DNA from: Massilia sp. Root133
Lineage (GTDB): Bacteria > Pseudomonadota > Gammaproteobacteria > Burkholderiales > Burkholderiaceae_D
Direction: 5' to 3'
NCBI RefSeq assembly: GCF_001426525.1
Contig: NZ_LMEW01000036.1
Location: 257,947-321,946 of the forward strand
DNA length: 64,000 nucleotides
Position numbers and translations under genes: made by a program. This document shows positions 23,438-40,167 of this stretch, in pieces (position 1 is the stretch's first letter; each line of letters starts with the position of its first letter). Under the pieces are notes generated by a model. The model worked only from the letters and a program-made list of their open reading frames with translations, was not told the DNA's origin and searched no databases.

Positions 23438-23511
23438 GGCGAGGTAGCAAAGCGGTTATGCAGCGGCCTGCAAAGCCGTCTAGACGGGTTCGACTCCCGT
23501 CCTCGCCTCCA
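23438..23511 (+). tRNA. tRNA-Cys(GCA)
   Basis: A 74-nt tRNA with acceptor stem GGCGAGG/CCTCGCC, anticodon GCA at 23470-23472, T-arm GGTTCGACTCC and encoded CCA. It ends the tRNA array. Its 3' part from the anticodon stem onward is repeated at 35414, which marks it as the insertion target of the downstream island; the gene itself is intact. Confidence 0.97.
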
Positions 23512-23515
23512 GCAT
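23464..23515 (+). repeat. Left attachment-site repeat (inside tRNA-Cys)
   Basis: These 52 bp, from the tRNA-Cys anticodon stem to 4 bp past the CCA, recur as a direct repeat at 35414-35465 with one mismatch (A at 23482, G at 35432). Tyrosine recombinases often use exactly this part of a tRNA gene as an attachment site. Confidence 0.75.
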
Positions 23516-23520
23516 ATCTG

Positions 23521-23546
23521 TAGATCAGCGCTTCTGCGCTGATCTA
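23521..23546 (+). terminator. Hairpin after tRNA-Cys
   Basis: A perfect 11-bp stem (23521-23531 with 23536-23546) and a 4-nt loop lie 9 bp after the tRNA-Cys CCA. No T run follows, so it may act as a processing or factor-assisted terminator. A weaker version of the hairpin also follows the tRNA fragment at 35414. Confidence 0.55.
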
Positions 23547-23714
23547 CGTCAGCGATGTAGCTTGTCCTTTCAAATCGACGCATTACGTTTGCGACACTAC
23601 ATACGGCTCGATCACACCGGTGCATTGGCGGACCTTCAACATTAATGCCATAATTTGGATCTCGACAATTCCAGTCCTCGGATTCGCTGGCGAGGGCGTA
23701 ACCTGGGCAGGTCC

Positions 23715-24344
23715 ATGAGTAACATGAAAGCGTCCATGCAGGTGTTGGAGTTATTTCCGACGCCGGTTTTCGTTGTGCAGACCCAAGGGGTAGACAACGA
23801 GGAACTGGCGCGCCAGATCTATGCCATTCGCGACGAGGAAGTCGCAGCCGGCATCGCCGACAAGACCGGCCTGTCGAACTATGGCGGCTTCCGTAGCTAT
23901 GACCTGTTGCCGCTCCCGGGGTTTGCACAGCTCAAGCAACTCGTGCTGCGGGTGCTCAACGAATGCATGGTCAAAGGCGCATGGTTTGCGGAACCGGAGG
24001 TCACGGAAGCGCAGTTCGGCGCGATGTGGGGGGTTATCAATGGCAAAGGGCACGCCAACAGCCCCCACAATCACCCGGGCAGTTGGATCAGCGGCGTGTA
24101 TTACCCGCAGGTGCCAGCCGCGAAAGAACGTGCGGGTTCGCTCTGCTTCCGTGATCCGATCCTGGCGCGCACCTTTACCCGCAGCTTTTACCGCAATGTG
24201 CCGGCCGAGGCGGCATCCGTGGTGCCCGAAGTGGGCAAGCTGATCATGTTCCCAAGCTGGGTCGAACACCACGTCGGCCCCAACCTGACCGATGAGGATC
24301 GCATCGCCATCGCGTTTAACATCGACCACGCGAAAGCGCGCTAG
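23715..24344 (+). CDS. TIGR02466-type putative 2OG-Fe(II) oxygenase
   Basis: This 209-aa protein matches the TIGR02466 group of putative 2-oxoglutarate-Fe(II) oxygenases. His118/His120 in ANSPHNHPGSWISGVYY and His185/186 in FPSWVEHHVGPN would bind iron, with Arg196 placed to bind 2-oxoglutarate. The start at 23715 is chosen for the GGGCAGGT stretch ahead of it. It is the only rightward gene of the island's enzyme set and converges on the DUF6445 gene with a 17-bp gap. The substrate is unknown; it may act on the same molecule or peptide as the halogenases. Confidence 0.75.
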   Translation: MSNMKASMQVLELFPTPVFVVQTQGVDNEELARQIYAIRDEEVAAGIADKTGLSNYGGFRSYDLLPLPGFAQLKQLVLRVLNECMVKGAWFAEPEVTEAQFGAMWGVINGKGHANSPHNHPGSWISGVYYPQVPAAKERAGSLCFRDPILARTFTRSFYRNVPAEAASVVPEVGKLIMFPSWVEHHVGPNLTDEDRIAIAFNIDHAKAR

Positions 24345-24361
24345 CTTTTCGAAGCCGCGCT

Positions 24362-25069
24362 TCAGCAGGCGTTCAGGCGCACCCCGAAGAACGCGTTGAC
24401 GGTCAGCCGTCCTTGTTCCGGATCGGCGCTGAGCAGCTCCGGATGGCGGATGTCGCCGCTGTGGTAGATCGTGCCATCATAGAACAACGCGCGGTTGAAC
24501 GCCGCCGGGACGGTCGCCATCTTTTCAAAATATGCGTTGGTCTTGGTCGGATACGCGGGGGCGCTGTCGATCAAGGCCGAAAACGCGTCACGGTCCATGT
24601 GCTGCCCGCGGGCCATCATGGCCGACAATGTCGCGGTGTCGACCCGCGGTCGAAAAAAACTCGTGCCACCCAGCCGTTCATCCTTGAACAAATACAGGAC
24701 CATGGCGAAATTGCCTTCGCCCGGCTGGAAGGGACCGCCATCGACATGCGGGATTCTCTGGAATGGCTCGAGATTTTCCGGCTTGCGCGTGACCATCGAC
24801 ATCCTGCACAAGGCGCTGCGGGTGCGCCGGGCGCCAAGCTGGCCCCGGATATATTGTGAAAAAAACGCTTCGAATGCCTGGTGCGCGGCTGGGGGCAACC
24901 GCAGTTCCGGCCCGGGATAGTAGTGAGAATCTTCCGGCGAAAAATCCGCGCGCCGCGCGACGGCATGGGCGATGAATTGCATGGGATCGCGCAGGATATT
25001 GTCAACGACTACATAAGAACGGCCATCGCTCAGCGCGACTTTACTCATCGAGGGATTTGGGTTGAACAT
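24362..25069 (-). CDS. DUF6445-like putative non-haem iron oxygenase
   Basis: The 235-aa protein contains HVDGG (His108, Asp110), then His203 (GTIYHSGD) and Arg221 (QGRLTVNAFF). This HxD...H...R order is the pattern of the 2-oxoglutarate oxygenase fold. It resembles the DUF6445 family, which I associate with tryptophan-halogenase gene clusters. The start at 25069 was chosen because it continues the protein; a second ATG lies at 25048. It is the last gene of the leftward halogenase operon, 22 bp after halogenase 1. Function unknown. Confidence 0.65.
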   Translation of the reverse strand: MFNPNPSMSKVALSDGRSYVVVDNILRDPMQFIAHAVARRADFSPEDSHYYPGPELRLPPAAHQAFEAFFSQYIRGQLGARRTRSALCRMSMVTRKPENLEPFQRIPHVDGGPFQPGEGNFAMVLYLFKDERLGGTSFFRPRVDTATLSAMMARGQHMDRDAFSALIDSAPAYPTKTNAYFEKMATVPAAFNRALFYDGTIYHSGDIRHPELLSADPEQGRLTVNAFFGVRLNAC

Positions 25070-25091
25070 GGGCGGCTCTGAATTAAAAGGA

Positions 25092-26609
25092 TCAGCTCGG
25101 CCGCTCTGCGCGGCAGAACCGCTGGACGTAAGCCTGATGCGATGGCAACTGCTGGACCGTCCTTTCGATCTTCTGGCGAATCGAGCCCAGGAACTGCGAC
25201 AGCTCGGCATCGCCCATCAGGTCGGCCGACTGGTGATGCTGCTCGGGCATGATGCCCTGGCCCAGCATGACTTGCAGCCACGACGACTCGGTAAACAACT
25301 CACCCTCGGTGCGGAACACCCGTCCGGTTTCGCGGAACAGGTCGATGCGGTGTTGCAGCGATGCCGGCACTTCCATGTTCCTGGCAGCTTCCCAGTATGG
25401 GGTATCGGCGCGACTGGTCACCTTGTAATGCAGGATGATGAAATCGCGGATGTGGGCGATCTCCCTTTGCACTTGGGTGTTGAACTCGTCGATGTCGGAG
25501 CGGCAGATGCCGTCGGCCGGGAACATCTGCATCAAACGGATCAGATTACGCTGGATCAGGTGGATGCTGGTCGACTCGATCGGTTCCAGAAAGCCGCTCG
25601 ACAGGCCGATGGCGACGACGTTGCCTTTCCACGATTGCTTGCGCTGGCCTGGCTTGAACTTGATCATGCGCGGCTGCGTCAGCGGCTCGCCATGCAGATT
25701 GTCGAGCAAGATCTGCATGGCTTCCTCGCCGTCCATATACTTGCTGGAGAATACGTGGCCATTGCCAACCCGGTGCTGCAGCGGGATCCGCCACTGCCAG
25801 CCGGCGCCGCGCGCAATCGCGCGTGTCATCGGCACCGGTTCGCCCATCAATTCAGTCTGTACCGCGATGGCGGTGTCGTTAAACAGCCATTGCGACCAGT
25901 CGTCGTATTCCACCCCCATGGTCTGGCCCAGCAACAGCGAGCGAAAGCCGGTGCAGTCGATGAACAAATCGCCTTCGATCAAGGCGCCGTTTCCGAGCTT
26001 GAGCCCGGTCACGTGGCCGCTGGCGGCGTCAAGCATCACCTGGTCGATCTTGCCTTCCACCCGCTTGGCGCCGAAACCCTCGCTGTACTTGCGCAGGAAC
26101 CTGGCGTACAAGGTCGCGTCGAGATGGTAAGCGTAATTCATGACGTCGTTCGGCAGATGCGCGAAGCGGCCAAGCTGGGCCGACCTCAATTCCAGGCAAT
26201 AGTCGCCGAAGTCACTGGCCAGGCCGCGCTGGCGGCCCTTGTGCCAGAAATGCTGGAAGCCCGCAGACCAGTGGTCGACGCCGGTCAAGCCGAACGAGTG
26301 GATATAGTCCTCGCCGGGCGCGCGCCAGTTCTCGAAGCTGATGCCCAGCTTGAAGGTCGCCTGGGTTGCCCGCATAACGTCGGCTTCGTTCAGTTCCAGC
26401 AACTGGTGAAACTGAATCAAGCTGGGTATGGTCGCCTCGCCCACCCCGACGGTACCGATCTCGTCGGATTCGACCAGCGTGATGTCCAGTGTCTTGCCCA
26501 AGATCCTGGAGATGATGGCAGCGGCCATCCAGCCGGCTGTGCCGCCGCCGGCGATGACGACGCGCCGCACGGGCTTCCTGCCGATATTTTCCGGATTGTT
26601 CTGTTGCAT
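25092..26609 (-). CDS. Flavin-dependent tryptophan-halogenase-like protein 1
   Basis: This 505-aa flavoprotein resembles PrnA/RebH-type halogenases, which use FADH2, oxygen and halide to halogenate an indole or phenol. It has the FAD motif GGGTAGWMAA at residues 21-30, the halogenase Lys87 in TQATFKLGISFENWR, the diagnostic WxWxIP (W271, W273, I275, P276), and FLEPIESTSIHLI, which holds the catalytic glutamate. An AGGAGA ribosome binding site precedes the ATG. A separate flavin reductase would be needed; none is in the window. Substrate unknown; free tryptophan is only one option. Confidence 0.85.
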   Translation of the reverse strand: MQQNNPENIGRKPVRRVVIAGGGTAGWMAAAIISRILGKTLDITLVESDEIGTVGVGEATIPSLIQFHQLLELNEADVMRATQATFKLGISFENWRAPGEDYIHSFGLTGVDHWSAGFQHFWHKGRQRGLASDFGDYCLELRSAQLGRFAHLPNDVMNYAYHLDATLYARFLRKYSEGFGAKRVEGKIDQVMLDAASGHVTGLKLGNGALIEGDLFIDCTGFRSLLLGQTMGVEYDDWSQWLFNDTAIAVQTELMGEPVPMTRAIARGAGWQWRIPLQHRVGNGHVFSSKYMDGEEAMQILLDNLHGEPLTQPRMIKFKPGQRKQSWKGNVVAIGLSSGFLEPIESTSIHLIQRNLIRLMQMFPADGICRSDIDEFNTQVQREIAHIRDFIILHYKVTSRADTPYWEAARNMEVPASLQHRIDLFRETGRVFRTEGELFTESSWLQVMLGQGIMPEQHHQSADLMGDAELSQFLGSIRQKIERTVQQLPSHQAYVQRFCRAERPS

Positions 26610-26622
26610 GGGGTGTCTCCTG

Positions 26623-27627
26623 CTACCGTTTTAGTTTCTGCATGATTGCGGCGCGCATGGATCGCGCCTTGTCGAGATCGAGCGGACCGAGGACGCCGCG
26701 CGCCGGTTCCGGGATATGCGCCGCTTCACTGCCGTCCGCTTCAAATATGTAGTGGCGGAACACCTCTTGCCATGCCAGTCGCTGGGGCGGCGGCAGTTCG
26801 CGCAGCGTCAGGATGGCGTGCATCAGCGTATTGACCGGGGCATCCATATAGCCTGGCGACTGGCGCCACCAGTAGTTGATCAGGACGTTAAAACTGTCGA
26901 GCCCCTCGATATGGTGCCACCACATGCTGGGTATGAAGATGGCGTCGCCCGGCAGCAATTCGGCCACCTGCGCATGCGCCATGGCCTCGGCAAACCTGGG
27001 GAATTTCACCAGGTCCGGCCGATGAAAATCGACCAGGCTGATGGGCTGATTGGCCGGCGCAAAATCGAGCGGCCCGATGTACAGGTTGCTCAACTGCTCG
27101 GGCGGGAACAAGGTGAAGCGGCGACGCCCGGCGGCCACGCAGGCCAGGTTATCGGGTAGATCCTGGTGCGCGGGAATGCGCGAACGGTTGCCAGTCCACA
27201 CGCTGACGAGCGGATCGCGATCGCCCAGGTCGAGATCGTTTTCGTCCCGGAAGCCTGGCAGGCAGGTGTCCACTGTCGTCGAGCCGACATAAAAAGTCGG
27301 CGCACACGGGTCATCGAGGTGTTCGAGCACTTGATCGAGGATCGCGTCGAGCCTGGCGTTGACGGCGTCGAAGTTGAACCCGCTGATGTCGTCGTTATAA
27401 AAATAGCGCCCCGCGATCTCGGGCGGACCGATCAGTGCACGGACCACCTCGCCCCGGTAGAAGCGGCGCAGATAGGCGATACCCTCGCGCTGCGAGCGCA
27501 GGCTGGCCTTGACCAGCGGCCAGCTTGCGACCAGGCCGCGCAGCACCAGCGGCTCGGTCGCAGTGAGAATGGCGTCAGTCAGCGCGGAAGGTAGCGCGCC
27601 GCTGATCTCGCGCATCGGTTTAGCCAT
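26623..27627 (-). CDS. Cupin-like (JmjC-type) protein
   Basis: The 334-aa protein resembles cupin_8/JmjC hydroxylases. Iron ligands would be His154 and Asp156 in IPAHQDLPDN and His238/239 in FIPSMWWHHIEGLDSFNVLINYWW. Related enzymes hydroxylate protein side chains or small molecules. The start at 27627 overlaps the sapC stop by 8 bp (ATGGCTAA), which indicates strong translational coupling. A longer open frame upstream overlaps sapC coding and is rejected. Confidence 0.75.
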   Translation of the reverse strand: MAKPMREISGALPSALTDAILTATEPLVLRGLVASWPLVKASLRSQREGIAYLRRFYRGEVVRALIGPPEIAGRYFYNDDISGFNFDAVNARLDAILDQVLEHLDDPCAPTFYVGSTTVDTCLPGFRDENDLDLGDRDPLVSVWTGNRSRIPAHQDLPDNLACVAAGRRRFTLFPPEQLSNLYIGPLDFAPANQPISLVDFHRPDLVKFPRFAEAMAHAQVAELLPGDAIFIPSMWWHHIEGLDSFNVLINYWWRQSPGYMDAPVNTLMHAILTLRELPPPQRLAWQEVFRHYIFEADGSEAAHIPEPARGVLGPLDLDKARSMRAAIMQKLKR

Positions 27628-28330
27628 CGACCGCAACGCGCTGGTTTTTGCGCTCGATGAGCTCGCGCAGCTGGACGAGCGATGCACCCATCTGATGGGC
27701 AGCCATCAGGTAGCCGTGCCGATGCAGGTGCGCAAGCGCCGCACCGTCGAGCGCGGCGAGCTTTTCCTCGTTGATCGTCGAAAAACCAAGCAGCTGGTTG
27801 TGCGAGCCGTTGTTCAATTCGATGTCGAGCGTGAACGGCTCGATCAGGTCATAGTCGAGCAGCGCAGCGACAAAGCCGGCGTTACTCTGCAGGCCCTGGT
27901 GCAAGGCCAGCAGCAGGCTGTTGACTTGTTCCAGCAGCTCGCTCTGGCCGCCGTATTCGAGAAACAGCGGATAGCCGGTGGCCGTGCTCACTTTTGGATG
28001 ATCGAGGTCGACATGCACCAGCAGGCCGTCGCCGGACAGTCCCATCGAGAAGGGCTGGCGCGCCACGGCCATCGGCACGTACAGCGCATCCCAGGCATCG
28101 GCGCCGGCAAACAAGTTTTCGCCCTCGACAAAACCGAACAGCGCCACCGGTTCGTAGCGCTGTTCGTTACCGGTCTCGCGGAACACGATCGGATAGTGGG
28201 CCAGCACATTGCGAAACTCGGCCGGGAAGGTCGGGCAGATCGTGTCGCCGTCACCGAACCGGGTGCCGCGGCCAAGAATGATTTTCAGGTCTTTGTGTTC
28301 GACGTTGTTCAACAAAACACGGTGGGTCAT
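27620..28330 (-). CDS. SapC family protein
   Basis: This 236-aa protein belongs to the SapC family, first named for a surface-layer-associated gene; family markers are PTFPAEFRNVLAHYPIVF and YEPVALFGFVEGENLF. The start at 28330 (MTHRVLLNN) is preferred to 28345 because AAGAGG lies 7 nt ahead of it. No signal peptide or membrane span is seen. SapC genes often accompany TonB receptors and tryptophan halogenases, as here. The biochemical role is unknown. Confidence 0.8.
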   Translation of the reverse strand: MTHRVLLNNVEHKDLKIILGRGTRFGDGDTICPTFPAEFRNVLAHYPIVFRETGNEQRYEPVALFGFVEGENLFAGADAWDALYVPMAVARQPFSMGLSGDGLLVHVDLDHPKVSTATGYPLFLEYGGQSELLEQVNSLLLALHQGLQSNAGFVAALLDYDLIEPFTLDIELNNGSHNQLLGFSTINEEKLAALDGAALAHLHRHGYLMAAHQMGASLVQLRELIERKNQRVAVDG

Positions 28331-28359
28331 TGCTTGCCTCTTCATTCAAATGTCATTGA

Positions 28360-29919
28360 CTACCTGGTCGGCATGCCGTGATGCACGATATGCCCGATCA
28401 GTTCGCGGTTGCCTGGCAGCCCCGCCAGCATCTTGCGGGTCATTGCGGCCGCCTGGCGGAAGTAGCCGTCGGCCAGATCGGCGTGCTCGCAGTGGCGGAT
28501 CCGCCGGTCCACCTCCGGCACCAGCCCCATGCCGTACATCACGTATTGATAACTGGCGGCGGGAAACAGCTCTTCGATCCGGTGCAGGTCGTAGCGCGAC
28601 GGCGGCTGCGTGCGCCAGAGCGCGAGCAACTCGTTCAGGCGCGTGGGAATCGATTCCGGCGCCCGGTGATCGCGCCAGTACTGGCTGGCGTTGCGCCGGC
28701 TGAGCACATAATGCAGCTTGAGAAAATCGATCACCCGTTCCCAGCGGTAGGTGAAGGCATCGTTGAAGCGTTTGGCGATGATGTCCATCACGGCGCGGTT
28801 GGCCGGCATGCCGTCGCTGAGCATGGTGGCGGACAACTCCACCATCGCCAGTGCCGACGCCTCGAGCGGCTCGATGAATCCGGCCGACTGGCCGATGGCC
28901 ACGCAGTTGCGATGCCAGAAATGGTCGCGGTAGCCGGGCTCGAAGCCGAGCTTGCGCGGCGTAGTGAGCATCGGTGCGCCACCGCCGCTGCGTTCGACGT
29001 AGGCCAGCAAGGCCTGCTCGGCCTGCGCGTCGCTGGTGTGGGCGCTCGAATACACGTGGCCGATGCCGCGCCTGGTCGGCAAGCCGATATCCCAGATCCA
29101 GCCGGCTTCCTGCGCCGTCGACCTGGTCTGCGATGCGATCGGACTGGCCGGCTCCGGATAGCCCAGCTGGACCACGCAAGCGCGGTCATTGAACAGGATA
29201 TGCTGTTGCGGCAGCAGGGGTACGCCATAATGCTTGCCCAGCAATAGCGCTTGTGAGCCGCTGCAATCGATGAACAGATCGCCCTCGATGGCGCCGCCCA
29301 GCTTGGTCTGCACCGAGGCGATGTCCCCGTCATCGTGCGCATGGACCGCCACCACATGGTCCGGCACGTGGATCACGCCGAGTTTCTCGGTGCAGTGGCG
29401 CCGCAAGAACAGACCGAACCTGGCGGCGTCGAGGTGGTAGCCATAGTTGGCCACGGCGGCGAACTCCGGCGTCGTCGCCTGCTTGGGCGCCCTGCCGGCG
29501 CGGCACAGGTGCGGCTGGACGCTGACCAGATCGGCAAACGGCACGGCGCCGTGCTGGCGCTGCCAGCTCGCGGCCAGATGGGTCTCGCCATAGCCGTAGG
29601 GGAGTTCGAACGGGTGGTAATAAGCGTCGTCATCGCTGCCGTCGACCCAGCCGACGAACAGCGAACCCTGTTTGAACGAGGCGTCGCAGGCGCGGAAGAA
29701 ATCGTTCTCGGAAACGCCAATGCGGTGCAAGGTCTCACGCATGCCGGGCCAGGTTCCCTCGCCGACACCCACCGGCGCCACCTCGGGCGATTCGATCAGG
29801 GTCACCTTCAAGGCCGGGCCGGCAGGGGTCTGATGCGCTGCCGCGACCAGCGCGGCGGTCAGCCAGCCGGCCGAGCCGCCACCGACGATCACGACCTTTT
29901 CCAGGGGTTGACTACGCAC
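28360..29919 (-). CDS. Flavin-dependent tryptophan-halogenase-like protein 2
   Basis: The second halogenase-like flavoprotein, 519 aa, is clearly diverged from the first. It has the FAD motif GGGSAGWLTA at residues 13-22, Lys83 in DASFKQGSLFVGW, WxWxIG (W274, W276, I278, G279) in place of WxWxIP, and FIEPLEASALAMVE near the active-site glutamate. The start is a GTG; no in-frame ATG lies nearby. It is the first gene of the leftward operon, 118 bp downstream of the TonB receptor stop with a terminator between. A different substrate from halogenase 1 is likely. Confidence 0.82.
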   Translation of the reverse strand: MRSQPLEKVVIVGGGSAGWLTAALVAAAHQTPAGPALKVTLIESPEVAPVGVGEGTWPGMRETLHRIGVSENDFFRACDASFKQGSLFVGWVDGSDDDAYYHPFELPYGYGETHLAASWQRQHGAVPFADLVSVQPHLCRAGRAPKQATTPEFAAVANYGYHLDAARFGLFLRRHCTEKLGVIHVPDHVVAVHAHDDGDIASVQTKLGGAIEGDLFIDCSGSQALLLGKHYGVPLLPQQHILFNDRACVVQLGYPEPASPIASQTRSTAQEAGWIWDIGLPTRRGIGHVYSSAHTSDAQAEQALLAYVERSGGGAPMLTTPRKLGFEPGYRDHFWHRNCVAIGQSAGFIEPLEASALAMVELSATMLSDGMPANRAVMDIIAKRFNDAFTYRWERVIDFLKLHYVLSRRNASQYWRDHRAPESIPTRLNELLALWRTQPPSRYDLHRIEELFPAASYQYVMYGMGLVPEVDRRIRHCEHADLADGYFRQAAAMTRKMLAGLPGNRELIGHIVHHGMPTR

Positions 29920-29962
29920 GCGAGTTCCATCCAGTAAGTAGTGTAGCGATTCAGTGTAGCAA

Positions 29963-29999
29963 GAAAAAAGCAGGCCATGGTCGTCACCACGGCCTGCTT
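29963..29999 (-). terminator. Intrinsic terminator after TonB receptor
   Basis: AAGCAGGCC pairs with GGCCTGCTT, with inner TGGT/ACCA pairing. Read leftward the stem ends in a run of T. It lies 38 bp after the receptor stop and separates it from the halogenase operon, allowing much higher receptor than enzyme expression. Confidence 0.7.
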
Positions 30000-30036
30000 C
30001 AGGACCTGCTCACTTATCAAGTGCCGACTTCAGCAA

Positions 30037-33000
30037 TCAGAACGTGTAACGTGCGCCGACCATGTAACGCGGGCCGGTTTGGGTTGCGTTCAGGAAGTGG
30101 GCCTGGGTGCGGCCATACTGGCGTTGCGTCGAATTGGTCAGATTGATCCCTTCGAACAGCACGTTCAGGTTCTTGGTCACGGCATAGCCCACGCTCAGGT
30201 CGGTCTGACCATAGGCCTTGGTGTACACCGGATCCAGGTGGCCGCCGCCATCGGTCTTCGAGGCCAGGAAGGAGTCGCGCCAGTTGTAGGCAAGCCGTAC
30301 CGTCCAACCAAAGTTTTCATAAATACCCACCAGGTTGGCCGAATTGCTCAGCCCCAGGATTGCGAACTGATCGGTGGTTTGGTCGTTCTTGTATTTCAAC
30401 GGCGAGGTCACGTAGGTGTAGTTCGCCTGAACGCCAAAGCCGGTCTCGCCGAACATATGCTGAACGGCCAATTCGGCGCCATGCAAGCTGGCCGGATTCG
30501 CGTTCACGAAGCTGGAGGTCCTGAACTGCATCAGCGGGTCGCTCGGGATGCCCGTGATCACACCGGTGGCATTGCCAACGGAGTTCACACCGGTCTTCGT
30601 GACGCCAGGCTGGCCGTTGTAGGTGTTGAGAATGTAGTTACGGATGCAGTTGGTGTCCGCAACGGTGCAACCACCAGTCGCCAGGGCAGCTTTATAGTAC
30701 CCGCCGCCGATCGGGGTATGGATGCCGTACTGGTTTTCCAGGACCTGGCTCTGGGCAGTGTAGTCAGTCAACTTCTTGTTGAACAGACCCAGCGAGGCGA
30801 CGCTGTGCTTGGTGAAGTACCATTCGAAAGACAAGTCCAGGTTCTTCGACTTCACCGGTTTGAGGCTCGGATTACCCGTCGCAGCAGTGCCACCCAGATA
30901 GTAGTCGGAACCGGTGCCGATGTTCAGGCCGCCCTGCAGCTCGTTGTAACGGGCGCGGCTGATGGTGACGCCGGCGCCGGCGCGCACCTTGAAGTTCGAG
31001 GTCACGTCGAAGTCGGCATTCACGTTTGGCAACACGTTGCTATAGGAGCCATGCGTGGTCGAGTAGGCGGTACCGGCAAAGGTCAGCGGCAGCTCATTCT
31101 GCGAAATCCAGGTCACGCCCGTCGCCGGGAGCACCTGGGCCACCGAAGTGACCTTGGTTTTTTCGAAGTGCAGGCCGACCGAGGTGTGGACCGGAATGGC
31201 CAGCTCCCAGTCCTGGCTCAAGGCCACGTAGGCCGTCGTCGTTTTTTCCTCCAGACGCTGGTCGCTGTCGGTCGTGGCGAAATTCGGCAGGAAGCTTGCT
31301 TGCGTTTTCAGACCGTCGTTACTGACATAGCCAGGCTTGGTGGCGGCGGCGGCGGTTGCCGCGCGCAGTGCGCCGAAATCGGCCGTGTAGAAGTCCCTGA
31401 ACATGCCGGCCGCGCCGGCGCCACCGAACTGGTCGAAGTAGCTGGCGGTGTCGCTCTTCTGGAACAGGCTGGCGGGATAGTCGTTCTTGCTCGTCAAGCC
31501 CGACCATCCGTTGTTCTGCACGAGCGATGAGGTCGAGCGGTTTTTCACGTCGGTATAGCCGACACCGAAGTTCAGGTTCGACGCGTCGGCCACCTTCCAC
31601 TCGCCGCTCAACTGCAACTGCTTGACGGTCGACTTGACGTAGGTGTTGGAGAACTGCGAACCGGTTGCCTGGATCGGCTCGGCGGCCACGTTCGTGCCGT
31701 CAATGCCCAGGATCGGCAGCTCGTGGGTGAAGTCGATCGAGGTTCTGCCGCGGCTGAAGCTGGCGTTGCTCAGCTGATTGCTGCTGCCCCATGGGCTGTC
31801 GGCTTTCGATTCGGCGCTCGACGAGTGGGCGTCGAGTGTGAACCTCAGGCCGGACTGCGGTTTCCAGACCGTGTTGAAGCCGACCGAATTGAGGGTGTTC
31901 TTGGTGGCATAGTCGGCTGAGATGACCGACATATCCTGCGGCGTGTTGTACACCTCGGAGTAAGTCAACGGTGCCTGGTTGCTGCCGCCCGGCCAGGTGC
32001 TGGTCGAGGTCGGGGTTTGGGCAAACCAGACGCTCATCTCGGCGCGGCGGGTGTGCAGCTTGTTCTGCGCGAAGGTGTAGTCGAGGGTTGCGGTCAGTTC
32101 TTTGACCGGACGGAATTGCAGCACGGCCTGGCCATTGACACGCTCGCGCTCGAGACCGTTGACCTGGTAACCAAAGTTTTGTGGGCGCTCATACAGATCG
32201 TTCGGACCTGGACGGTTCGTTACGCTGCCGACGGGCGCACCGGGCTGCGGCAAGGTCGAGCCGTCAATCACATCCGAACCTTTGTAGGGGCCGATCCAGC
32301 CATTGGCGATCTGGGCACGATTCAAGCCCGAGTCGCGCTTCGAGTAGCTGGCGTTGCCGCTAAAGCCCCACATGCCATCTTTGGTGACGGTGCTGAAGAT
32401 GCCGGAAACTTCAGGCGTAACGCGCTTACCCTTCAGCAAGTCGGGCAGGTTCTGGCTCGACTGGTCCACCACGCCCTTGACGCCAACGCTCGCCACGGTG
32501 CCCTTTTGGTCGAAAGGACGCGCGGTCATGATGTTGACCGTGGCGCCGATGCCGCCGGACGGATCCTGGGCGCGGCTGGTCTTGTAGACCTGCAGCTGCG
32601 AAATGGCATCCGACGCCAGGTTGTCGAAGGAGAACGAGCGGCCGTTCGCGTCGTTCAGGTCAGCCGTCGGCATTTGACGGCCATTCAACAGCACCAGGTT
32701 GAAGTCGGGGCCCATGCCGCGCACCGTGATCTTCTGGCCTTCGCCATTTTGACGGTCGATAGACACGCCGGTGATGCGCTGCAGCGACTCGGCCAGGTTC
32801 GTGTCCGGGAATTTACCGATGTCTTCAGCGACGATACCGTCGACGATACCATCGGAGTTCTTCTTCAGGTTCAGCGTCGACTGCATACTGGCCCGGATAC
32901 CGGTCACCACGACGGTATTCGTCGCGACGCCCTGCGCGGGCGTGGACCCCGTCTGGTCGGTCGGCGCGGCGATGCCGTTGGCGGCGCCCATATCCTGCGC

Positions 33001-33105
33001 ATGGGCCGGCGCAACCAGGCCGGCACAGGCGCTCGCAACGGCGAGGCTGATCAGGCGATGCCTGGTGTTCAGGTGATGGGAAAAAACCCTCTTGGTGTGT
33101 TGCAC
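30037..33105 (-). CDS. TonB-dependent outer-membrane receptor
   Basis: This 1022-aa receptor has a signal peptide (cleavage near AHA-QD, residue 36), a TonB-box/plug start NTVVVTGIRASMQST, the plug signature GKFPDTNLAESLQRITGVSIDR, and a beta-barrel ending in ...YMVGARYTF with the C-terminal aromatic residue needed for BAM insertion. This long receptor type with the GIRASMQ...KKNSDGIVD plug is common in carbohydrate-uptake loci. The adjacent ROK regulator supports a sugar or glycan ligand. The gene heads the leftward part of the island. Confidence 0.93.
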   Translation of the reverse strand: MQHTKRVFSHHLNTRHRLISLAVASACAGLVAPAHAQDMGAANGIAAPTDQTGSTPAQGVATNTVVVTGIRASMQSTLNLKKNSDGIVDGIVAEDIGKFPDTNLAESLQRITGVSIDRQNGEGQKITVRGMGPDFNLVLLNGRQMPTADLNDANGRSFSFDNLASDAISQLQVYKTSRAQDPSGGIGATVNIMTARPFDQKGTVASVGVKGVVDQSSQNLPDLLKGKRVTPEVSGIFSTVTKDGMWGFSGNASYSKRDSGLNRAQIANGWIGPYKGSDVIDGSTLPQPGAPVGSVTNRPGPNDLYERPQNFGYQVNGLERERVNGQAVLQFRPVKELTATLDYTFAQNKLHTRRAEMSVWFAQTPTSTSTWPGGSNQAPLTYSEVYNTPQDMSVISADYATKNTLNSVGFNTVWKPQSGLRFTLDAHSSSAESKADSPWGSSNQLSNASFSRGRTSIDFTHELPILGIDGTNVAAEPIQATGSQFSNTYVKSTVKQLQLSGEWKVADASNLNFGVGYTDVKNRSTSSLVQNNGWSGLTSKNDYPASLFQKSDTASYFDQFGGAGAAGMFRDFYTADFGALRAATAAAATKPGYVSNDGLKTQASFLPNFATTDSDQRLEEKTTTAYVALSQDWELAIPVHTSVGLHFEKTKVTSVAQVLPATGVTWISQNELPLTFAGTAYSTTHGSYSNVLPNVNADFDVTSNFKVRAGAGVTISRARYNELQGGLNIGTGSDYYLGGTAATGNPSLKPVKSKNLDLSFEWYFTKHSVASLGLFNKKLTDYTAQSQVLENQYGIHTPIGGGYYKAALATGGCTVADTNCIRNYILNTYNGQPGVTKTGVNSVGNATGVITGIPSDPLMQFRTSSFVNANPASLHGAELAVQHMFGETGFGVQANYTYVTSPLKYKNDQTTDQFAILGLSNSANLVGIYENFGWTVRLAYNWRDSFLASKTDGGGHLDPVYTKAYGQTDLSVGYAVTKNLNVLFEGINLTNSTQRQYGRTQAHFLNATQTGPRYMVGARYTF

Positions 33106-33608
33106 TATGTCTCCTCTCGTCTCTCGAAAAAACGCCGGACCCGACGGGCGGCGGCGTCCGTGCTGGTGGTGCTACAACCTGGCGGCCCGCATCGGGTCAT
33201 TGCCGGCGGGTCTGTTGTCCGCTGCAGCGGCTGCGGCAGCCGTCGCTTTGTTGCCTCATTTATCATTGATAGCGGACATCATTTCCCGTAGATTAATGAC
33301 ACTAAATATTTTGGTCAATCGATCAAACCAAACGTTTGCCCCAACAATGAGCGTCGGTGCACCGCGGCGGGACTCAGTTTGATTGTGAAAGCGGGGATTA
33401 CGTAACATACGTACGTTGATGTCGGTACGTACGCGAGAAATCGATTTCATAATTAAATCAATCACTTCATCCAATACGATGAGGATGACCAGGCCGTGAG
33501 ACTTCGCGTTGCGAGACAGGAAAGATGTTGCAAATATGCATTTTGCATGATCAACAAATTTTTCCAACCCGTTGCATAATCATCACAACCACTTGATTTT
33601 CTTACCCC
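33106..33608. promoter_or_regulatory. Divergent control region of TonB receptor and ROK genes
   Basis: This 503-bp gap is the most AT-rich part of the window and holds no convincing gene. It contains two TACGTACG palindromes at 33408-33415 and 33426-33433, spaced 18 bp, and an AT-rich dyad GATTTCATAATTAAATC just downstream. A TTGGT...ACCAA dyad surrounds position 33320. These are plausible operators for the ROK protein. No promoter could be fixed with certainty. Confidence 0.5.
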
Positions 33609-34853
33609 ATGCAAGTTACCGGTGACCAGCAACTCCTCAAACAACTGAACCGCATGGCCGTCGTACGCCAGGTGAGCACCCAGCCCGGGCTGTCGCGCGC
33701 GGCGCTGGCCGACGTGCTGGGCCTGACCAAGGCCGGCATCAGCCTGCTCGTGCGCGCACTGGTCGACGAAGGCTGGCTCATCGAAAGCGAGCTGCTCGTG
33801 ACGGGCGAAGTCGGCCGGCGTGCCACGCCGTTGCATCTCGATCCGTCGCGCCTGGCCCTGCTCGGTGCCGAACTGGGCGTGGACGAAGCCCGCGTCGTCG
33901 CGACGAACCTGCTGGGCGAAGTCCTCGACACGCGCATCCTCACGTACGAGGATCCGGGCGACCCCACGTCGTGCATCCGGCTGGCCGCGCTCGCGCTCGC
34001 GAAGCTGGCGAAACGGCTCGGGCGCCCCGTTCTCGGCGTGGGCATCGGCCTGCACGGCGCCGTCGACGAGGCGCTGGGCCTGCTGCACCACGCGCCCCAC
34101 CTCGGCTGGCGTAACGTGGACGTGGCCGGGATCGTCCAGGCCCACGCCAAGGGCTCGCCGCTGGACGGCCTGCCGCTGTACGTGCAGAACGAGGCGAACG
34201 TCGCCGCGCTGGGCGAGTTCGAATTCGCCGACCAGGCCAGCACCGATCCCTTGATTTATCTGTCAATCGGCTATGGCGTGGGCGCCGGCGTGATCGTCAA
34301 CGACCGCTTGCTGACCGGCCTGCACGGCTTTGCCGGCGAAGCGGGCCACGCGATCCTGCAGGCCGGCGGGCCGCTGTGCTCGTGTGGCAGGCGCGGCTGC
34401 GCCGATGCCCTGATCGGCCTCGGCGCGCTGCTAGGCACCGAACTGCCCAGCCATCCCGCGCTGGACCGGCTGTTCCGCCGCGTGGTCGACGGCGACCCCG
34501 CCACCTGCGCCGCAGTGGACGCAGCCGGCCGCCAGCTCGGCGTCCTGCTCAACAACCTCTGGGCCAGCTTCGACCCGATGGCGATCGTCATCGGCGGACC
34601 GGCAGTGCGGCTGGGCGACACGCTGATCGAGCCGGCGCGGCGGGTGCTGGGCGAGTACGCGGATGCCGCGATGCTGACCGCGCCGGAAATCCGCACTTCG
34701 CGCTTCGGTGCGGACGTGGTCGCGGTAGGCGGCGCGGCGCTGGCGCGCCACCGGCTCACGCGCCCGCTCGACCTGCAGAGCATGGCGCGGCGGGCCGACA
34801 AAACGGGGCGCCAGGCGCGGGCGACCAATGGCGAACTGGGCCTGGCGCGCTAG
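33609..34853 (+). CDS. ROK-family transcriptional regulator
   Basis: The 414-aa protein has an N-terminal winged-helix domain (about residues 8-65, LSRAALADVLGLTKAGISLLVRALVDEGW-type) and a ROK sugar-binding domain with YLSIGYGVGAGVIVN, GFAGEAGHAIL and the zinc motif CSCGRRGC. It resembles XylR/NagC/Mlc regulators, which respond to sugars or sugar phosphates. It is divergent from the TonB receptor, which it probably controls. It is inside the putative island, so the module appears to carry its own regulation. Confidence 0.88.
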   Translation: MQVTGDQQLLKQLNRMAVVRQVSTQPGLSRAALADVLGLTKAGISLLVRALVDEGWLIESELLVTGEVGRRATPLHLDPSRLALLGAELGVDEARVVATNLLGEVLDTRILTYEDPGDPTSCIRLAALALAKLAKRLGRPVLGVGIGLHGAVDEALGLLHHAPHLGWRNVDVAGIVQAHAKGSPLDGLPLYVQNEANVAALGEFEFADQASTDPLIYLSIGYGVGAGVIVNDRLLTGLHGFAGEAGHAILQAGGPLCSCGRRGCADALIGLGALLGTELPSHPALDRLFRRVVDGDPATCAAVDAAGRQLGVLLNNLWASFDPMAIVIGGPAVRLGDTLIEPARRVLGEYADAAMLTAPEIRTSRFGADVVAVGGAALARHRLTRPLDLQSMARRADKTGRQARATNGELGLAR

Positions 34854-35413
34854 ATTAGGAAGGCCGATGCCTCCGCAATTACATACGGCTGTGCTGCGGG
34901 TACGCGGAACGATGATCAAGATGCTCGACCGGGCGGCAGCTTGCCCATCGCTGAGCCGTTTGGCCCCTAACTCCGTTCGCCGGCCGAACTCATGATGTGA
35001 CAGACTGGACCAGTCGCGGTGGAGCTTGGAATCGTGCTGAACGAGATGGCAGAGGTCGGCTCTCTAAGACTACAGACACTGATCGAGGTAGGGATTAGGT
35101 ATGTATGCCTTGCCGGGACCTTACGTTTACCGGCGCGATCCGATCGACCCTGCTCCGGTCTAGAGTAATAGTCGAGCCGTAATTGCTGCGTGAATATCGC
35201 GTTGGCGGTGTCGAAGCAGGGATCGTAGACGCTTGCAGTTAAAGCCGCCATGCAGCTTGCCAAGCAAGTCGCGAACGAAGCGCAGGCCGAAGCCACGCCT
35301 GGGGATGTCAAGTAAAAGTCGATGGTAGACGGCGCTCTGCACCTCGAATGCGACGAACTCATGTGGTGCAAAGTGTGGTGCTGAGCTAACTCTTTGATTT
35401 GTAAGAGCCAAAA
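34854..35413. other. Non-coding or decayed stretch at island end
   Basis: About 560 bp without a convincing gene. Short open frames read across the tRNA-Cys fragment and resemble the spurious peptides that tRNA genes give when translated. A short frame ending in AKQVANEAQAEATPGDVK (near 35250-35305) may be a remnant of a lost gene. An integrase would be expected near here but none is recognisable. Confidence 0.5.
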
Positions 35414-35465
35414 CGGCCTGCAAAGCCGTCTGGACGGGTTCGACTCCCGTCCTCGCCTCCAGCAT
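35414..35465 (+). repeat. Right attachment-site repeat (tRNA-Cys 3' fragment)
   Basis: A 52-bp copy of the 3' part of tRNA-Cys, including the anticodon, T-arm, acceptor 3' strand and CCA, 51/52 identical to 23464-23515. The 5' half of the tRNA is absent, so it is not functional. Downstream, an imperfect AGATCAG...CTGATCT hairpin echoes the one after the intact gene. Confidence 0.75.
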
Positions 35466-35589
35466 TCTTTCAGATCAGCGCATTGGCACTGATCTACGTC
35501 ACCAGTGAACTTCGCTCGTTTACGCATCGCAGCCTTCAGGCATGCGTACGTCGGTCATCGATGTGCCACTTCAGCTCCGATAGCCCATA

Positions 35590-36657
35590 TCAGAACGTGT
35601 GACGTACTCCAGTCTCTACCTCACGTCCGCTGAAGCCGTTTCTTGCCGAGTTCAGGCGCACACCGCCACCGTTCTTCGTATAGCCGGACGCCGCATAGAG
35701 AAATGTCCGTTTGCTGAGCGGGTAGGTGTAGTCCAGAGCGTACTGGTCGGAGACCCCGTTGCGGAACTCCCGGATGTCGTTGCGATTCCACGATGCGCAC
35801 ATCGTGCCGCGCCCGGCGCCGACGGTCACCCCGGTCATGTAGCTGCGCATCGCCAGCGCGCCGCCATTGCCGATGCGCGTATCGCCATAAATGCCGTGGA
35901 ACTTGACCGGCCCGAGATCGTAGACGGCGCCGACGACCGCGCTTTTCACGTTGACGTTCGCGGATCCCAGATGTGCTGGGCCGACCAGGGCACCCAGCGG
36001 CGTCGATGCCGCGCCGAGGTCGACGCCGTCGGCATGCTGGTACGCCGCGCGTACATTCCACGCGCCCGCCACGTACGATACCGAAGCGAAGTCGCTGCTG
36101 TTGCTGGCGAAGCTCCCAGCCTTTTCGCCGAACGCGTGGCCGGCGTAGAACCCGATGCCGTTGTGCAGTCGGATGCTGTACGTGACCGCATTGTCTGCCC
36201 GGGACAGTGGATCGGCTTTTCCGAGGCCGTAGGCGAACACCCGTTGCGCGTTGCCGGTGCCGTTGATGACGAACGGATCGACCGTGAACAGCACGTCGTA
36301 GACCGCGGTCGTCTGCCTGCCGAAGCGGATCGAACCGAATCCGCCGTTCAGCCCGACCCACGATTGCCTGCCGAAGAGACGGTTGCCGTAGCCCAGTGTG
36401 CCGTCGTCGGCGTTGAAGCCGCTTTCCAGTTGGAAGCTGGCCGAAAGTCCGCCGCCCAGCTCCTCGGTGCCGCGAAAGCCGAAGCGCGACGCCCGTTGCT
36501 GCCCCGATCCAACTGAAGGCGTGTTGGCGTTCGACGTAGTGGCGTTTCCGTAACGTAGACCGACGTCGACGATCCCGTACAGCGTGACATTGCTTTGCGC
36601 GGACGACGTGCCGCCCACCAGGACGAGCAGTCCCGATGCGATGATCTGCTTTTTCAT
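35590..36657 (-). CDS. Gram-negative porin
   Basis: This 355-aa porin of the betaproteobacterial 16-strand trimeric type has a signal peptide (MKKQIIASGLLVLVGG, cleavage near SSA-QS) and the mature start SNVTLYGIVDVGLRY. The signatures ASRFGFRGTEELGGGLSASFQLE and LFGRQSWVGL are present, and it ends in GVRHTF. The start at 36657 follows the signal peptide; the longer open frame is rejected. It is the last gene of the leftward DctA operon, 85 bp after the hydrolase, and likely admits the operon's substrate. Confidence 0.92.
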   Translation of the reverse strand: MKKQIIASGLLVLVGGTSSAQSNVTLYGIVDVGLRYGNATTSNANTPSVGSGQQRASRFGFRGTEELGGGLSASFQLESGFNADDGTLGYGNRLFGRQSWVGLNGGFGSIRFGRQTTAVYDVLFTVDPFVINGTGNAQRVFAYGLGKADPLSRADNAVTYSIRLHNGIGFYAGHAFGEKAGSFASNSSDFASVSYVAGAWNVRAAYQHADGVDLGAASTPLGALVGPAHLGSANVNVKSAVVGAVYDLGPVKFHGIYGDTRIGNGGALAMRSYMTGVTVGAGRGTMCASWNRNDIREFRNGVSDQYALDYTYPLSKRTFLYAASGYTKNGGGVRLNSARNGFSGREVETGVRHTF

Positions 36658-36742
36658 TTGGTATTGACCGAACAGGTAAAGGAGTGGCGTTCGCCCGGCT
36701 TGCACGCCGGGCGATCCGATGCCGCATGCGAGCGGGTAGCGT

Positions 36743-37630
36743 TTATTTGTTTGCGAAGACCCGGTGCGCGAACGCGGCGATCGCGTCGGCCATGGCTTGC
36801 GGCTGTTCGGGCGCCAGCGCATGGCCGGCATTCGGAATGACGACGACGGTGACCCGGTCGCCCAGCATGTTCTTCAGGACCTGGGAAAAGCGCCGCGGCG
36901 CCACGGCGTCGTTTTCGGCCTGGAGGTCGAGGATGGGGGCCGTGCCGGCCGCGAAGTAATCGTCGACCGGCGTCGTGTTGCGCGCGTGCGATTCGGCCTC
37001 GTGCGTTTCCGAGTGCCAGCCGGTCAGCCACACGCGCGGGTCGTGACCGGGCGCGAAGAAGGCCTTGCGCAAGTATTCGATGCGCTGGGCTTCCGGCAGC
37101 TTCATGTCGGAGGGGCCGTCGATGGCCTTGCGCATCTCCGGGCCGATCGGTTTTTCGTTGGACCCGGGCGGCACCTTGCCGGCCGACGCGGCCGCGACGA
37201 CGACGCCGCGCACGAGGTCGGGCCGGTCGGCCGCCAGCTGGCGCGCCGCGAAGTTGCCCCAGGCATGGCCGACCACCACGACCGGTCCCTTGTTCTCGTG
37301 CTCGATCACGGCGGCGACGTCCTTCGCGAAATTGTGCACGCTGAGATTCTCCATCGGACCTTTGCTGAGTCCGATCCCGCGCGGTTCGGGACGCAGCACG
37401 CGGAACCCGTCCGCCACCAGTCGCTCGGCGACCTGGTCGTAGTCCCGCACCGAGCGACCGAGCGACGGCAGCATCACGATGACGGGGCCTTGTCCCTGGC
37501 GCATCACGTCGATCTGCACGTTGCCGTACTTGACGAGTTGATGATCCGCCGTGCCGGCGGTGCCGGCGAACGCGCATGCCGACAAGGTTGCGGCGAGGAC
37601 GAATGCGTAGCTGAGCTTGCGAAGTTTCAT
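36743..37630 (-). CDS. Alpha/beta-hydrolase-fold protein with altered nucleophile
   Basis: This is an exported 295-aa alpha/beta-hydrolase. The N-terminus is a signal peptide; LSAC at residues 16-19 fits a lipobox, so it may be a lipoprotein. The nucleophile elbow reads GHAWGN with Ala123 where Ser, Cys or Asp is expected; the oxyanion region (MLPSLGRSVRDYD) and the late His (PNAGHALAPEQP) are present. It may thus be a non-hydrolytic relative or binding protein. It sits between the ModA-like protein and the porin in a leftward operon. Confidence 0.8.
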   Translation of the reverse strand: MKLRKLSYAFVLAATLSACAFAGTAGTADHQLVKYGNVQIDVMRQGQGPVIVMLPSLGRSVRDYDQVAERLVADGFRVLRPEPRGIGLSKGPMENLSVHNFAKDVAAVIEHENKGPVVVVGHAWGNFAARQLAADRPDLVRGVVVAAASAGKVPPGSNEKPIGPEMRKAIDGPSDMKLPEAQRIEYLRKAFFAPGHDPRVWLTGWHSETHEAESHARNTTPVDDYFAAGTAPILDLQAENDAVAPRRFSQVLKNMLGDRVTVVVIPNAGHALAPEQPQAMADAIAAFAHRVFANK

Positions 37631-37661
37631 GTGAGTCTCCTGTCTGTCGTGGTTATTCGTT

Positions 37662-38456
37662 TTATTTCGCGCCGATCGGGTCGAGTCCCGTCTTCACGAA
37701 CGTCGCTGCGGCCTCCGGCGTCTTCAGGTAGGCGAGGAAGGCTTCGGCGGCCTTGCGCTCCCTGGCGTCCTTGCCGATCGCCGCGGCGATGACGCTGACC
37801 TTTTGCACGGCTTCCGGGAGCGGACCGACGTACTGGATGCCGGGAATGGCGCGCAGCTCGCTGATCTGCTGCAGGCCGAGGTCGGCGTCGCCGCGTTCGA
37901 TGGCCGTGCCGACCAGTTCGCGTCCGTGGATGGGTACGCTTTTCGCCTTCATCGCGTCGGCAATGCCGAGCTCGGGGAACAGGGTGCCGACGATGTACTT
38001 GCCGCTCGCGCCCTCGGAAAACGCGACCGACTTCGCCGCGAGCAGCGTGGCGCGCAGGCTGTCGACCGACGCAATGTCCGGCCGGGGCAGGCCCGCGCGT
38101 ACGGCGACGCCGACGCGCGACTCGGCCAGGTCGACGGCGGTCGCGGGCAGCAGCTTGCCTTGCTTGATTTGATCGGCCATCGCCGCCTTGATCATGAAGC
38201 ACGCGTCCATCGCTTCGCCGGCCTGGATGCGCATGGGCAGCGCATCGGGCGAGCTACCGTAGGACGGGCCCCACGACACCACCAGATGGTGGCCGGACTT
38301 CTTCTCGAAGTCGGGGCCGAGTTGCCTGAACGCCGCCGACAGCGCGCCCGTGGCGAGGACATGGATGTCGGCGGCCTGCGCCGTGGTCGACAACAATCCC
38401 GAACAGCCGAGGGCAAGCAGGGCTGTCGCACAAGCACGGTTACTTGATTTGTTCAT
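37662..38456 (-). CDS. ModA-like periplasmic substrate-binding protein
   Basis: This 264-aa exported protein (signal peptide with cleavage near AQA-AD) has the type-2 periplasmic binding fold of molybdate-type ModA proteins: IHVLATGALSAAFRQLGPDFEKKSG, then SEGASGKYIVGTLFPELG. No ABC permease or ATPase gene is near, so it is an orphan. Such solitary ModA-like proteins are often found in catabolic operons; a sensory or accessory uptake role is possible. Confidence 0.8.
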   Translation of the reverse strand: MNKSSNRACATALLALGCSGLLSTTAQAADIHVLATGALSAAFRQLGPDFEKKSGHHLVVSWGPSYGSSPDALPMRIQAGEAMDACFMIKAAMADQIKQGKLLPATAVDLAESRVGVAVRAGLPRPDIASVDSLRATLLAAKSVAFSEGASGKYIVGTLFPELGIADAMKAKSVPIHGRELVGTAIERGDADLGLQQISELRAIPGIQYVGPLPEAVQKVSVIAAAIGKDARERKAAEAFLAYLKTPEAAATFVKTGLDPIGAK

Positions 38457-38499
38457 TCCATCGTCTCCTTGTCGTTATTTGATTGATGCAATCGTGTGG

Positions 38500-39326
38500 T
38501 CAGAAATACAGCCGCTTCGGGTTATCCACCAGTACGGCCTGTGCGGTCGCCGCGTCGCCGCAGACCTCTACCAGGAAGTCGAGCAGCTGGCCGTCGTCGG
38601 GCACGGGGCCCTGGATGTTCGGGTGCGGCCAGTCCGTGCCCCAGATCGCGCGCTGCCGCGCGGCGGCGAGCAGGCGTCGGGCGAGCGGCAGCGCGGCGGG
38701 CCACGGCGCCGGCGCGCCCTGCATCGCGCGGTCGACGCCGGACAGCTTGAGCCACCGCTGCGGATGCGCAAGATGGCGTTCCAGCCGCTTCAGGGCGGGC
38801 TCGTCCCATTCGCGCGTCGCATCCTGGCGCGCCATGTGGTCGATCACGAGCGGCATGTCGAGGTCGCGCCAGGCGTCGAGGACCGGCAGGACTTGCGCCA
38901 GCTGTCCGTGCAGCAGCGCATGCCAGCCCAGGGGGCGCACCCGTTCGGCGACGCTGCGCAACCGGTCGAGGTCGCGTTCGCCGGGCAGGTGTCCCATGAA
39001 ATTGAAGCGCACGCCGCGGACCCCGCCGTCGTGCAGCGAGCGCAGGTCGGCGTCATCCATGGTCTCGTCGATGAGCGCCACGCCGCGGTAGCGTCCATCC
39101 GTCGCCGCGAGCGCCGCCAGCAGCGCGCTGTGGTCCGACTGGTAGCAGGCCGCCTGCACCAGCACGCCGTGGCCGATCCCGAGCCGTTCGTGCATCGCCA
39201 GCAGCTCGGTCATGGGCGCCGCTGCCGGCCGGTACGCGGCCGTGGCGGGCAGGGGAAACGCGTCCCACGGTCCATAGATATGGGTGTGGCAGTCCCACGG
39301 GCCGCCGGTGAGCGCGAGCCGGACCA

Positions 39327-39327: not shown

Positions 39328-40157
<830 letters not shown>

Positions 40158-40167
40158 GCTGCTTTCC

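Follow-up and report, generated by a model that had tools for sequence, protein, structure and literature searches.

An integrase-free 12-kb module beside tRNA-Cys in Massilia, likely mobilised in trans by a tRNA-Cys-specific tyrosine recombinase

A 12-kb block beside the tRNA-Cys gene of Massilia sp. Root133 is a discrete insertion module, its site-specific insertion is near certain, and it is likely to be mobilised in trans. From comparisons of sequence we assign a probability of roughly 0.6 to the reading that the block is an integrase-free mobile module, moved by a tRNA-Cys-specific tyrosine recombinase that belongs to other elements. The block lies in a 64,000-nucleotide stretch of this genome, which we call the window (positions 257,947 to 321,946 of NZ_LMEW01000036.1, assembly GCF_001426525.1). 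The window genome (G000) comprises 7.15 Mb in 36 contigs, with the window on contig C36, and it was compared within a set of 62 genomes of the genus that includes it. A preliminary description of the window had proposed an insertion at the tRNA and had left open whether the element was decayed, mobilised in trans or of more unusual origin. The features that define the two ends of the block are as follows.

23438..23511, + strand: intact tRNA-Cys (GCA), the integration target (ARAGORN)
23464..23515, + strand: left copy of the 52-bp repeat, with the tRNA core at 23464-23511 (repeat finder)
23512..23551, + strand: conserved trailer and left end, with the inverted repeat AGATCAGCGC...GCGCTGATCT
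35362..35369, + strand: arm-type site 1, TGTGGTGC
35374..35381, + strand: arm-type site 2, TGTGGTGC
35387..35399, - strand: putative integration host factor (IHF) site, a perfect match to WATCAANNNNTTR, which we take to be the IHF consensus
35414..35465, + strand: right copy of the 52-bp repeat, with the displaced tRNA-Cys 3' fragment at 35414-35461 (repeat finder)
35462..35501, + strand: trailer-like sequence of the left-end type past the right core, the start of the next block

As the preliminary description had stated, the two repeat copies lie in direct orientation and differ at a single position (A/G). The similarity extends on the same strand from 23464-23551 to 35414-35501 (89% over 88 nt), through the hairpin-like trailer. 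With 51 of 52 bases identical and an extension to 88 nt, both within 64 kb, a chance repeat is ruled out. Identity starts at nucleotide 27 of the tRNA, in the 5' strand of the anticodon stem, and covers the rest of the gene; the remnant at the right end is the 3' 48 nt of tRNA-Cys. ARAGORN calls no tRNA there, hence no full second tRNA-Cys, and it agrees with the preliminary description that an intact tRNA stands at one end and only a 3' fragment at the other. This is the arrangement of a tRNA-targeted island, in which the displaced fragment keeps the orientation of the gene. Elsewhere in the window genome, the only other full copy of the repeat that we found is a divergent tRNA-Cys on contig C34 (90%).

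The block behaves as a unit in G047, which is a single-contig chromosome. There, window positions 23464-35501 align as one stretch of 12,040 bp at 97.4% identity, in the order tRNA-Cys, 49-kb module, tRNA fragment, the window's block, tRNA fragment, 2.2-kb module, tRNA fragment, after which the sequence of window 43341 onward resumes. The block is the second module in this array, 49 kb from tRNA-Cys, with the right arm of another module on its left. It thus occupies another position among other neighbours, and both of its ends therefore fall at the tRNA core, which lends support to the proposed insertion footprint. The window's own junction between tRNA-Cys and the block is an empty site for the 49-kb module of G047, and the 130 bp past the left core in the window show 94% identity to the second position in G047. 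In G009, the block adjoins tRNA-Cys as in the window (96-97%) but lacks about 1.4 kb of the second halogenase gene. The whole-block alignment covered G000, G009 and G047; these are also the only three of the 62 genomes that hold the right end of the block at 95% or more, the sporadic distribution of a tRNA-targeted island. A search with its receptor gene in 25 genus genomes returned, beyond G000 and G009, only relatives of 51-56%. Thus, neither of the findings named beforehand as contrary to insertion, a full second tRNA-Cys at the right end or the same genes here in all strains, was encountered.

The block is less diverged between species than the DNA around it. Divergence at four-fold degenerate sites was 0.051 between G000 and G047 (eight genes), 0.054 between G000 and G009 (seven genes) and 0.055 between G009 and G047 (seven genes), versus 0.119, 0.128 and 0.131 for 17 genes of the left flank (rank tests: 1e-5, 3e-5 and 3e-6, respectively). 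The nearest shared gene on the right, the one right-flank gene used, gave 0.156-0.187. The left-flank set holds 17 of 20 open reading frames (ORFs), those at 10498-11133, 11051-11593 and 15676-16218 having been dropped as probably in the wrong frame, and the gene at 28360-29919, mostly deleted in G009, was excluded from the G009 pairs. Without this cleaning, the values in the same order of pairs (G000-G047, G000-G009, G009-G047) are 0.118, 0.128 and 0.130 for the left flank and 0.049, 0.069 and 0.0485 for the module, the 0.069 including a paralogue mismatch. Total nucleotide difference is 2.3-2.7% in the block versus 5.0-5.2% in the 5.5 kb to its left. G+C content at third codon positions in seven of the eight block genes (SapC not listed) is 0.71-0.89, no higher than in the majority of flank genes; stronger codon bias is therefore unlikely to account for the low divergence. 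None of the three copies of the block holds an integrase, and the two that are complete are collinear; the simplest history is therefore transfer after loss of the integrase. Thus, the block probably moved after the species had split, already without an integrase, and because this integrase-free DNA is less diverged than its flank, we favour trans-mobilisation over decay.

Homologous exchange might also equalise the block among relatives: DNA arriving by transformation or transduction would recombine by way of its own homology or of the 48-88 bp repeats, with no integrase involved. The repeats do offer about 90 bp of homology, and on the left flank the divergence among the three species is only about 5%. 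However, the neighbours of the block in G047 and in the window differ on both sides, with joins exactly at the core, and exchange of this kind does not need the arm and IHF sites, which are nonetheless conserved in modules with other cargo. We consider this explanation improbable.

Those sites recur across the genus. A query with the right end gave 34 matches, spread over 23 of the 62 genomes, that span the arm region and the core (query start ≤31, end ≥92). In the right ends, the site TGTGGTKC occurs twice in direct orientation, near -52 and -40 relative to the core, and the IHF consensus comes next. Both arm sites are present in 26 of the 36 tRNA fragments examined, a count that omits L066 (a duplicate of the L067 stretch) and L093 (a true tRNA). 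Among these 26 arms, the IHF consensus is matched perfectly in 21 and with one mismatch or none in 25, where 0.0025 and 0.046, respectively, are expected per shuffled arm. A different right-arm type (TGCAAGC..TGATTTTACTGATGAGATA) precedes tRNA-Cys fragments in G023 (L020:9261, 13027), with a related one in G075 (L078:8829), and perhaps reflects a second integrase specificity at the same tRNA.

Left ends fall into two kinds. Of the 10 integrase-associated loci (remnants included), eight have an arm site within one mismatch at +62 to +69, and all 10 have a 14-nt palindrome with no more than two mismatches; the two left ends from G075 have two mismatches to the arm site, as do many shuffles, together with the palindrome. 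Among the 16 integrase-free modules with both ends known, only that of G015 has a left arm, with TGAGGTGC on both sides and thus the same base change on both arms. The left ends of the other 15 are at background, with best matches of two to four mismatches, the exceptions being G060 (one mismatch, off position) and G056 (a near-palindrome without the site); 6% of shuffles reach one mismatch or better. These 16 modules were selected for armed right ends and include the window's block three times (G000, G009 and G047); the 2.2-kb module of G047 (degraded arm) and the G023 module (another arm type) were left out. Many integrase-free modules start instead with about 40-45 bp of the tRNA-trailer type, which is also seen at tRNA-Cys in genomes that yielded no fragment, e.g., G053. 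The left end of the block (23512..23551) is of this kind, its 39-45 bp or so being common to other modules and to the tRNA-Cys loci of the clade, and no arm-type site was found past it.

Such one-sided ends are also what ordinary decay might leave. An integrase-bearing island at tRNA-Cys would have lost its left arm and integrase by one deletion and would now be fixed and immobile, its right arm a relic. The left arm adjoins the integrase, and a single deletion would take both. Stages in between do occur: the G013 integrase is cut by an insertion sequence (IS) of the IS3 type, and G022, G071, G077 and G075 have integrase remnants; the outermost right arm of G047 is degraded, and arms are incomplete in 10 of the 36 fragments. 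Yet integrase-free modules mostly begin on the left with sequence of the tRNA-trailer type, unlike that found left of the integrase, and the block shows less divergence than its flank, as if it had moved after the loss. Among the routes that the preliminary description had left side by side, mobilisation in trans is therefore favoured on the lower divergence, and decay, although we think it rather unlikely, stays as a serious rival.

The candidate helper is a tyrosine recombinase (PF00589) encoded directly past tRNA-Cys in G004 (intact), G013, G074 and G048 (two copies). Clear relatives of it, several of them fragmentary, occur in nine of the 62 genomes (G004, G074, G048, G013, G041, G075, G067, G077 and G022), and four further genomes have only 35-36% matches to its C-terminal half. 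No match at E≤1e-20 was obtained in the window genome, G009, G047 or G056, and PF00589 has no match in the block or arrays of G000, G009, G047, G056, G060, G066, G072 and G045; for G012, G001, G015 and G004:C43 (one short contig), absence of the integrase rests on the cognate-family searches and the matches listed. The block thus lacks the integrase expected inside a tRNA-targeted island, and since the genomes that carry it have no match to this family at that threshold, the helper would be elsewhere or have since been lost.

A pattern-based scan of 84,980 species genomes yielded 53 named loci of the integrase family, and in 45 of these tRNA-Cys ends 135-254 bp upstream of the integrase match. 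A relative (62%) on a contig from IMG/VR (L161) lies beside a tRNA-Cys core (L161:5817-5864) that is outside any tRNA gene. Because this contig also has matches to the DNA-ligase and guanylate-kinase families, at least one carrier of the integrase looks like a phage. An IHF-like site, seen by eye, stands at the usual position of this core. Identity to the integrase in phage records reaches 43%. A plasmid source was rejected: 2293 plasmid records match, all below 60% identity, and among the matches listed, the five that cover at least 80% of the integrase are at 25-29%. Another tyrosine recombinase of the host might in principle act on the block, as the window genome has 10 PF00589 matches on its other contigs. 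None is on C36, however, nor does any of them give a match to the tRNA-Cys integrase at E≤1e-20, and the arms show the motif of the integrase-bearing elements, which makes this explanation very improbable.

In the mechanism that we propose, the attachment (att) site would consist of the 3' 48 nt of tRNA-Cys and a right, P'-like arm with its two arm-type sites and putative IHF site. A recombinase from other elements, including at least one that is phage-like, would cut in the anticodon loop and put modules beside tRNA-Cys; each incoming copy would restore the tRNA, and repeated insertions would build tandem arrays with the newest module closest to the tRNA. The circle of a module would present right arm, core and trailer in the layout of lambda attL, and lambda Int recombines attL with attL. 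We infer from sequence the binding of Int and IHF, the crossover point, excision of the circle, action in trans, the order of insertion and the passage of DNA between cells. A bolder version, which we hold as a tentative possibility, is an integron-like tRNA system in which integrase-free cassettes, each with one single-armed attL-type site, are serially inserted at tRNA-Cys by a trans-supplied recombinase, so that single-armed sites would be the normal substrate and not a decayed attP.

The arrays themselves vary widely. Three fragments follow tRNA-Cys in each of G056, G066 and G047, and two do so on one contig in G004; modules range from about 2 to 49 kb. Among ORFs of at least 80 aa (smaller genes were not tested), no gene is common to the fetched modules, and a recombinase encoded by the integrase-free modules themselves was rejected as a candidate since none of these ORFs is common to them. 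An IS-type transposase is common to modules of G056 and G013, and paralogous signalling domains occur in several modules. From a scan of one or a few large ORFs per module, cargo includes pyruvate-phosphate dikinase, an ABC exporter and GGDEF/EAL proteins in the 49-kb module of G047, filamentous-haemagglutinin-repeat proteins, one with an EndoU domain, in G056 (L069, L070), a pPIWI_RE protein in G012 (L018), a BCCT transporter in G045 and KdpA in G015. By these predicted products, the locus also gathers contact-inhibition and defence-like genes.

Eight right-arm matches away from tRNA-Cys were examined, with no tRNA within the 6-16 kb fetched. Six of them (one each in G000, G022 and G071, three in G041) keep the arm and CGGCCTGCAAAG (with one change in L168), continue for a few partially matching bases and then diverge; the other two (L166, L167) are broken differently. 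We interpret these six as secondary-site insertions in which strands were exchanged within the anticodon loop. No clear core of a partner left end was seen among the listed matches, where very short cores would be undetectable. On contig C34 of the window genome, a decayed right arm with a partial core (L099:8460-8549) has no tRNA in the surrounding 16 kb. In G022, L100:7303-7766 is a 78% homologue of the right end of the block at a non-tRNA place, adjoining a stray right arm, and a reading frame broken in the window is open there. Contig C1 of G041 holds a broken tRNA-Cys 5' half (L170:14039-14068) as well as a whole but broken tRNA-Cys that has the trailer hairpin (L171:4147-4212).

Several observations weigh against mobilisation in trans. 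Excision and integration are deduced from sequence. The three block-holding genomes have no integrase match at E≤1e-20, and clear relatives of the enzyme are limited to nine of the 62 genomes. The block has no integrase-type left arm, which could mean that it is immobile, and one or both arm sites are missing in the 10 incomplete fragments mentioned above. The empty site foreseen in the preliminary description, with tRNA-Cys (to 23515) joined directly to about 35466 onward, was not found among the fetched stretches; its reciprocal, for the 49-kb module, was. Homologous exchange between relatives could give the lower divergence of the block, and the modules of G045 and G072 have about 650 bp in common at 83% near their right ends. 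Since modules were found via their right ends, the intactness of right arms is partly a matter of selection. Finally, the stray on G041:C1 lies about 18 kb from the broken 5' half of tRNA-Cys, with the second broken tRNA-Cys about 40 kb away on the opposite side; a displaced tRNA locus, rather than a secondary site, may therefore explain some strays. These last two points, the selection for armed right ends and the broken tRNA-Cys near a stray, slightly lower our confidence in the main reading.

The remaining features of the block, and the block that follows it, are listed here.

23718..24344, + strand: 2-oxoglutarate-Fe(II) oxygenase (PF13759, TIGR02466), cargo
24362..25210, - strand: DUF6445 protein, cargo (Pfam)
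25092..26609, - strand: tryptophan-halogenase-like flavoprotein, cargo (Pfam)
26623..27687, - strand: cupin_8 protein, cargo (Pfam)
27620..28345, - strand: SapC family protein, cargo (Pfam)
28360..29919, - strand: second halogenase-like flavoprotein, mostly deleted in G009, cargo (Pfam)
30037..33105, - strand: TonB-dependent receptor (TIGR01782), cargo
33609..34853, + strand: ROK-family regulator, cargo
34975..35316, + strand: reading-frame remnant, open in the G022 homologue, LysR-like by eye only
35466..43340, no strand assigned: next block, with porin, hydrolase, solute-binding protein and LysR

No integrase, excisionase or transfer gene was found among the Pfam families of the eight main genes (only some ORFs shorter than about 200 aa were scanned), and PF00589 has no match on C36, in accord with the preliminary description. 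The same eight genes include no relaxase or type IV secretion family (oriT and small ORFs were not searched) and, by Pfam, no phage structural, packaging or replication gene (PHROGs was not run). The next block (35466-43340) starts with the same trailer type; no right att was found for it, and it is absent from the fetched stretches of G009 and G047, with pieces after a partial att in G050. Upstream, ARAGORN predicts five tRNA-Gly genes and the one tRNA-Cys within 22804-23511, the former being five near-identical tRNA-Gly(GCC) genes in tandem at 22804-23364. In the stretches from relatives, the number of tRNA-Gly copies is 2 to 8, with two tRNA-Arg interspersed in G013, and a second, divergent tRNA-Cys lies about 200 bp past the first in G003, G014 and G055 (L030, L031, L098).

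Genomic islands without an integrase are numerous, and how they move is in many cases poorly understood. At this locus one can see a candidate helper enzyme, arm sites, an IHF site, a probable crossover region and arrays readable in order, which makes trans-mobilisation of a single-armed tRNA module testable. If true, a tRNA gene can serve, much like an integron, as a platform through which ordinary cargo (uptake, contact-inhibition and defence-like genes) passes from species to species. One direct query of the open-licence texts in PubMed Central (PMC) found no published Massilia tRNA-Cys island, and no paper on the halogenase/TonB/SapC cluster was found.

On the main reading, the block belongs to a genus-wide group of tRNA-Cys modules and is moved in trans; among known systems, its closest counterparts are cis-mobilizable elements (CIMEs) and the tandem ssrA islands of Dehalococcoides. 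CIMEs are reportedly associated with deletion and tandem accretion of elements related to ICESt1 (Pavlovic 2004). Like a CIME, the block has att-type flanks with neither integrase nor transfer genes found between them, in the eight main genes and, for PF00589, contig-wide. Its right arm has arm sites and the IHF consensus, and its left arm is absent. Unlike a CIME, it has no backbone of an integrative and conjugative element and no helper element adjoining it in the window. G047 does show the tandem state that accretion in cis with a helper would give, but its array is without a PF00589 match. Arrays of integron cassettes without an integrase (clusters of attC sites lacking integron-integrases, CALIN) are mobilised in trans by complete integrons, according to PMC11389934. 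The likeness is one of working only: cassettes of varied cargo, each ending in a recombination site, stand in an array and would be served by an integrase from elsewhere. We claim no attC or intI (no attC search was run); the modules span about 2-49 kb, a tRNA gene is their target and the repeat is a tRNA fragment.

In lambda attL (P'-O-B), as described in PMC4880445, the P' side has arm sites and the IHF H' site. One side of the block likewise shows core, IHF site and tandem arm sites in that order; the arm sequences, the enzyme and the lifestyle differ. The IntS paper (PMC2951348) reports an overlap with the att arm for most integrase genes linked to tRNAs, and possible autoregulation of these genes, which may be why left arm and integrase occur together here. 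Tycheposons of Methylophilaceae were rejected as a closer parallel, being tRNA-Met islands with a recombinase (PMC10872708).

The nearest described case is that of the ssrA-specific genomic islands of Dehalococcoides (McMurdie 2011, PMC3146451). These follow a single RNA gene in tandem, and a 3' fragment of that gene bounds each of them; 16 have integration genes and 15 do not, and a motif beside the repeat is conserved. Their describers suggest that the islands free of integration genes may be cis-mobilizable elements. The recombinases concerned are serine recombinases (DsiA/DsiB), and insertion is in the T-loop of the tmRNA. The Massilia modules differ in the tyrosine recombinase, the anticodon region of tRNA-Cys as the target and an arm with two sites and IHF. 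They resemble the ssrA islands in being tandem, bounded by fragments of an RNA gene and, in some cases, without integration genes.

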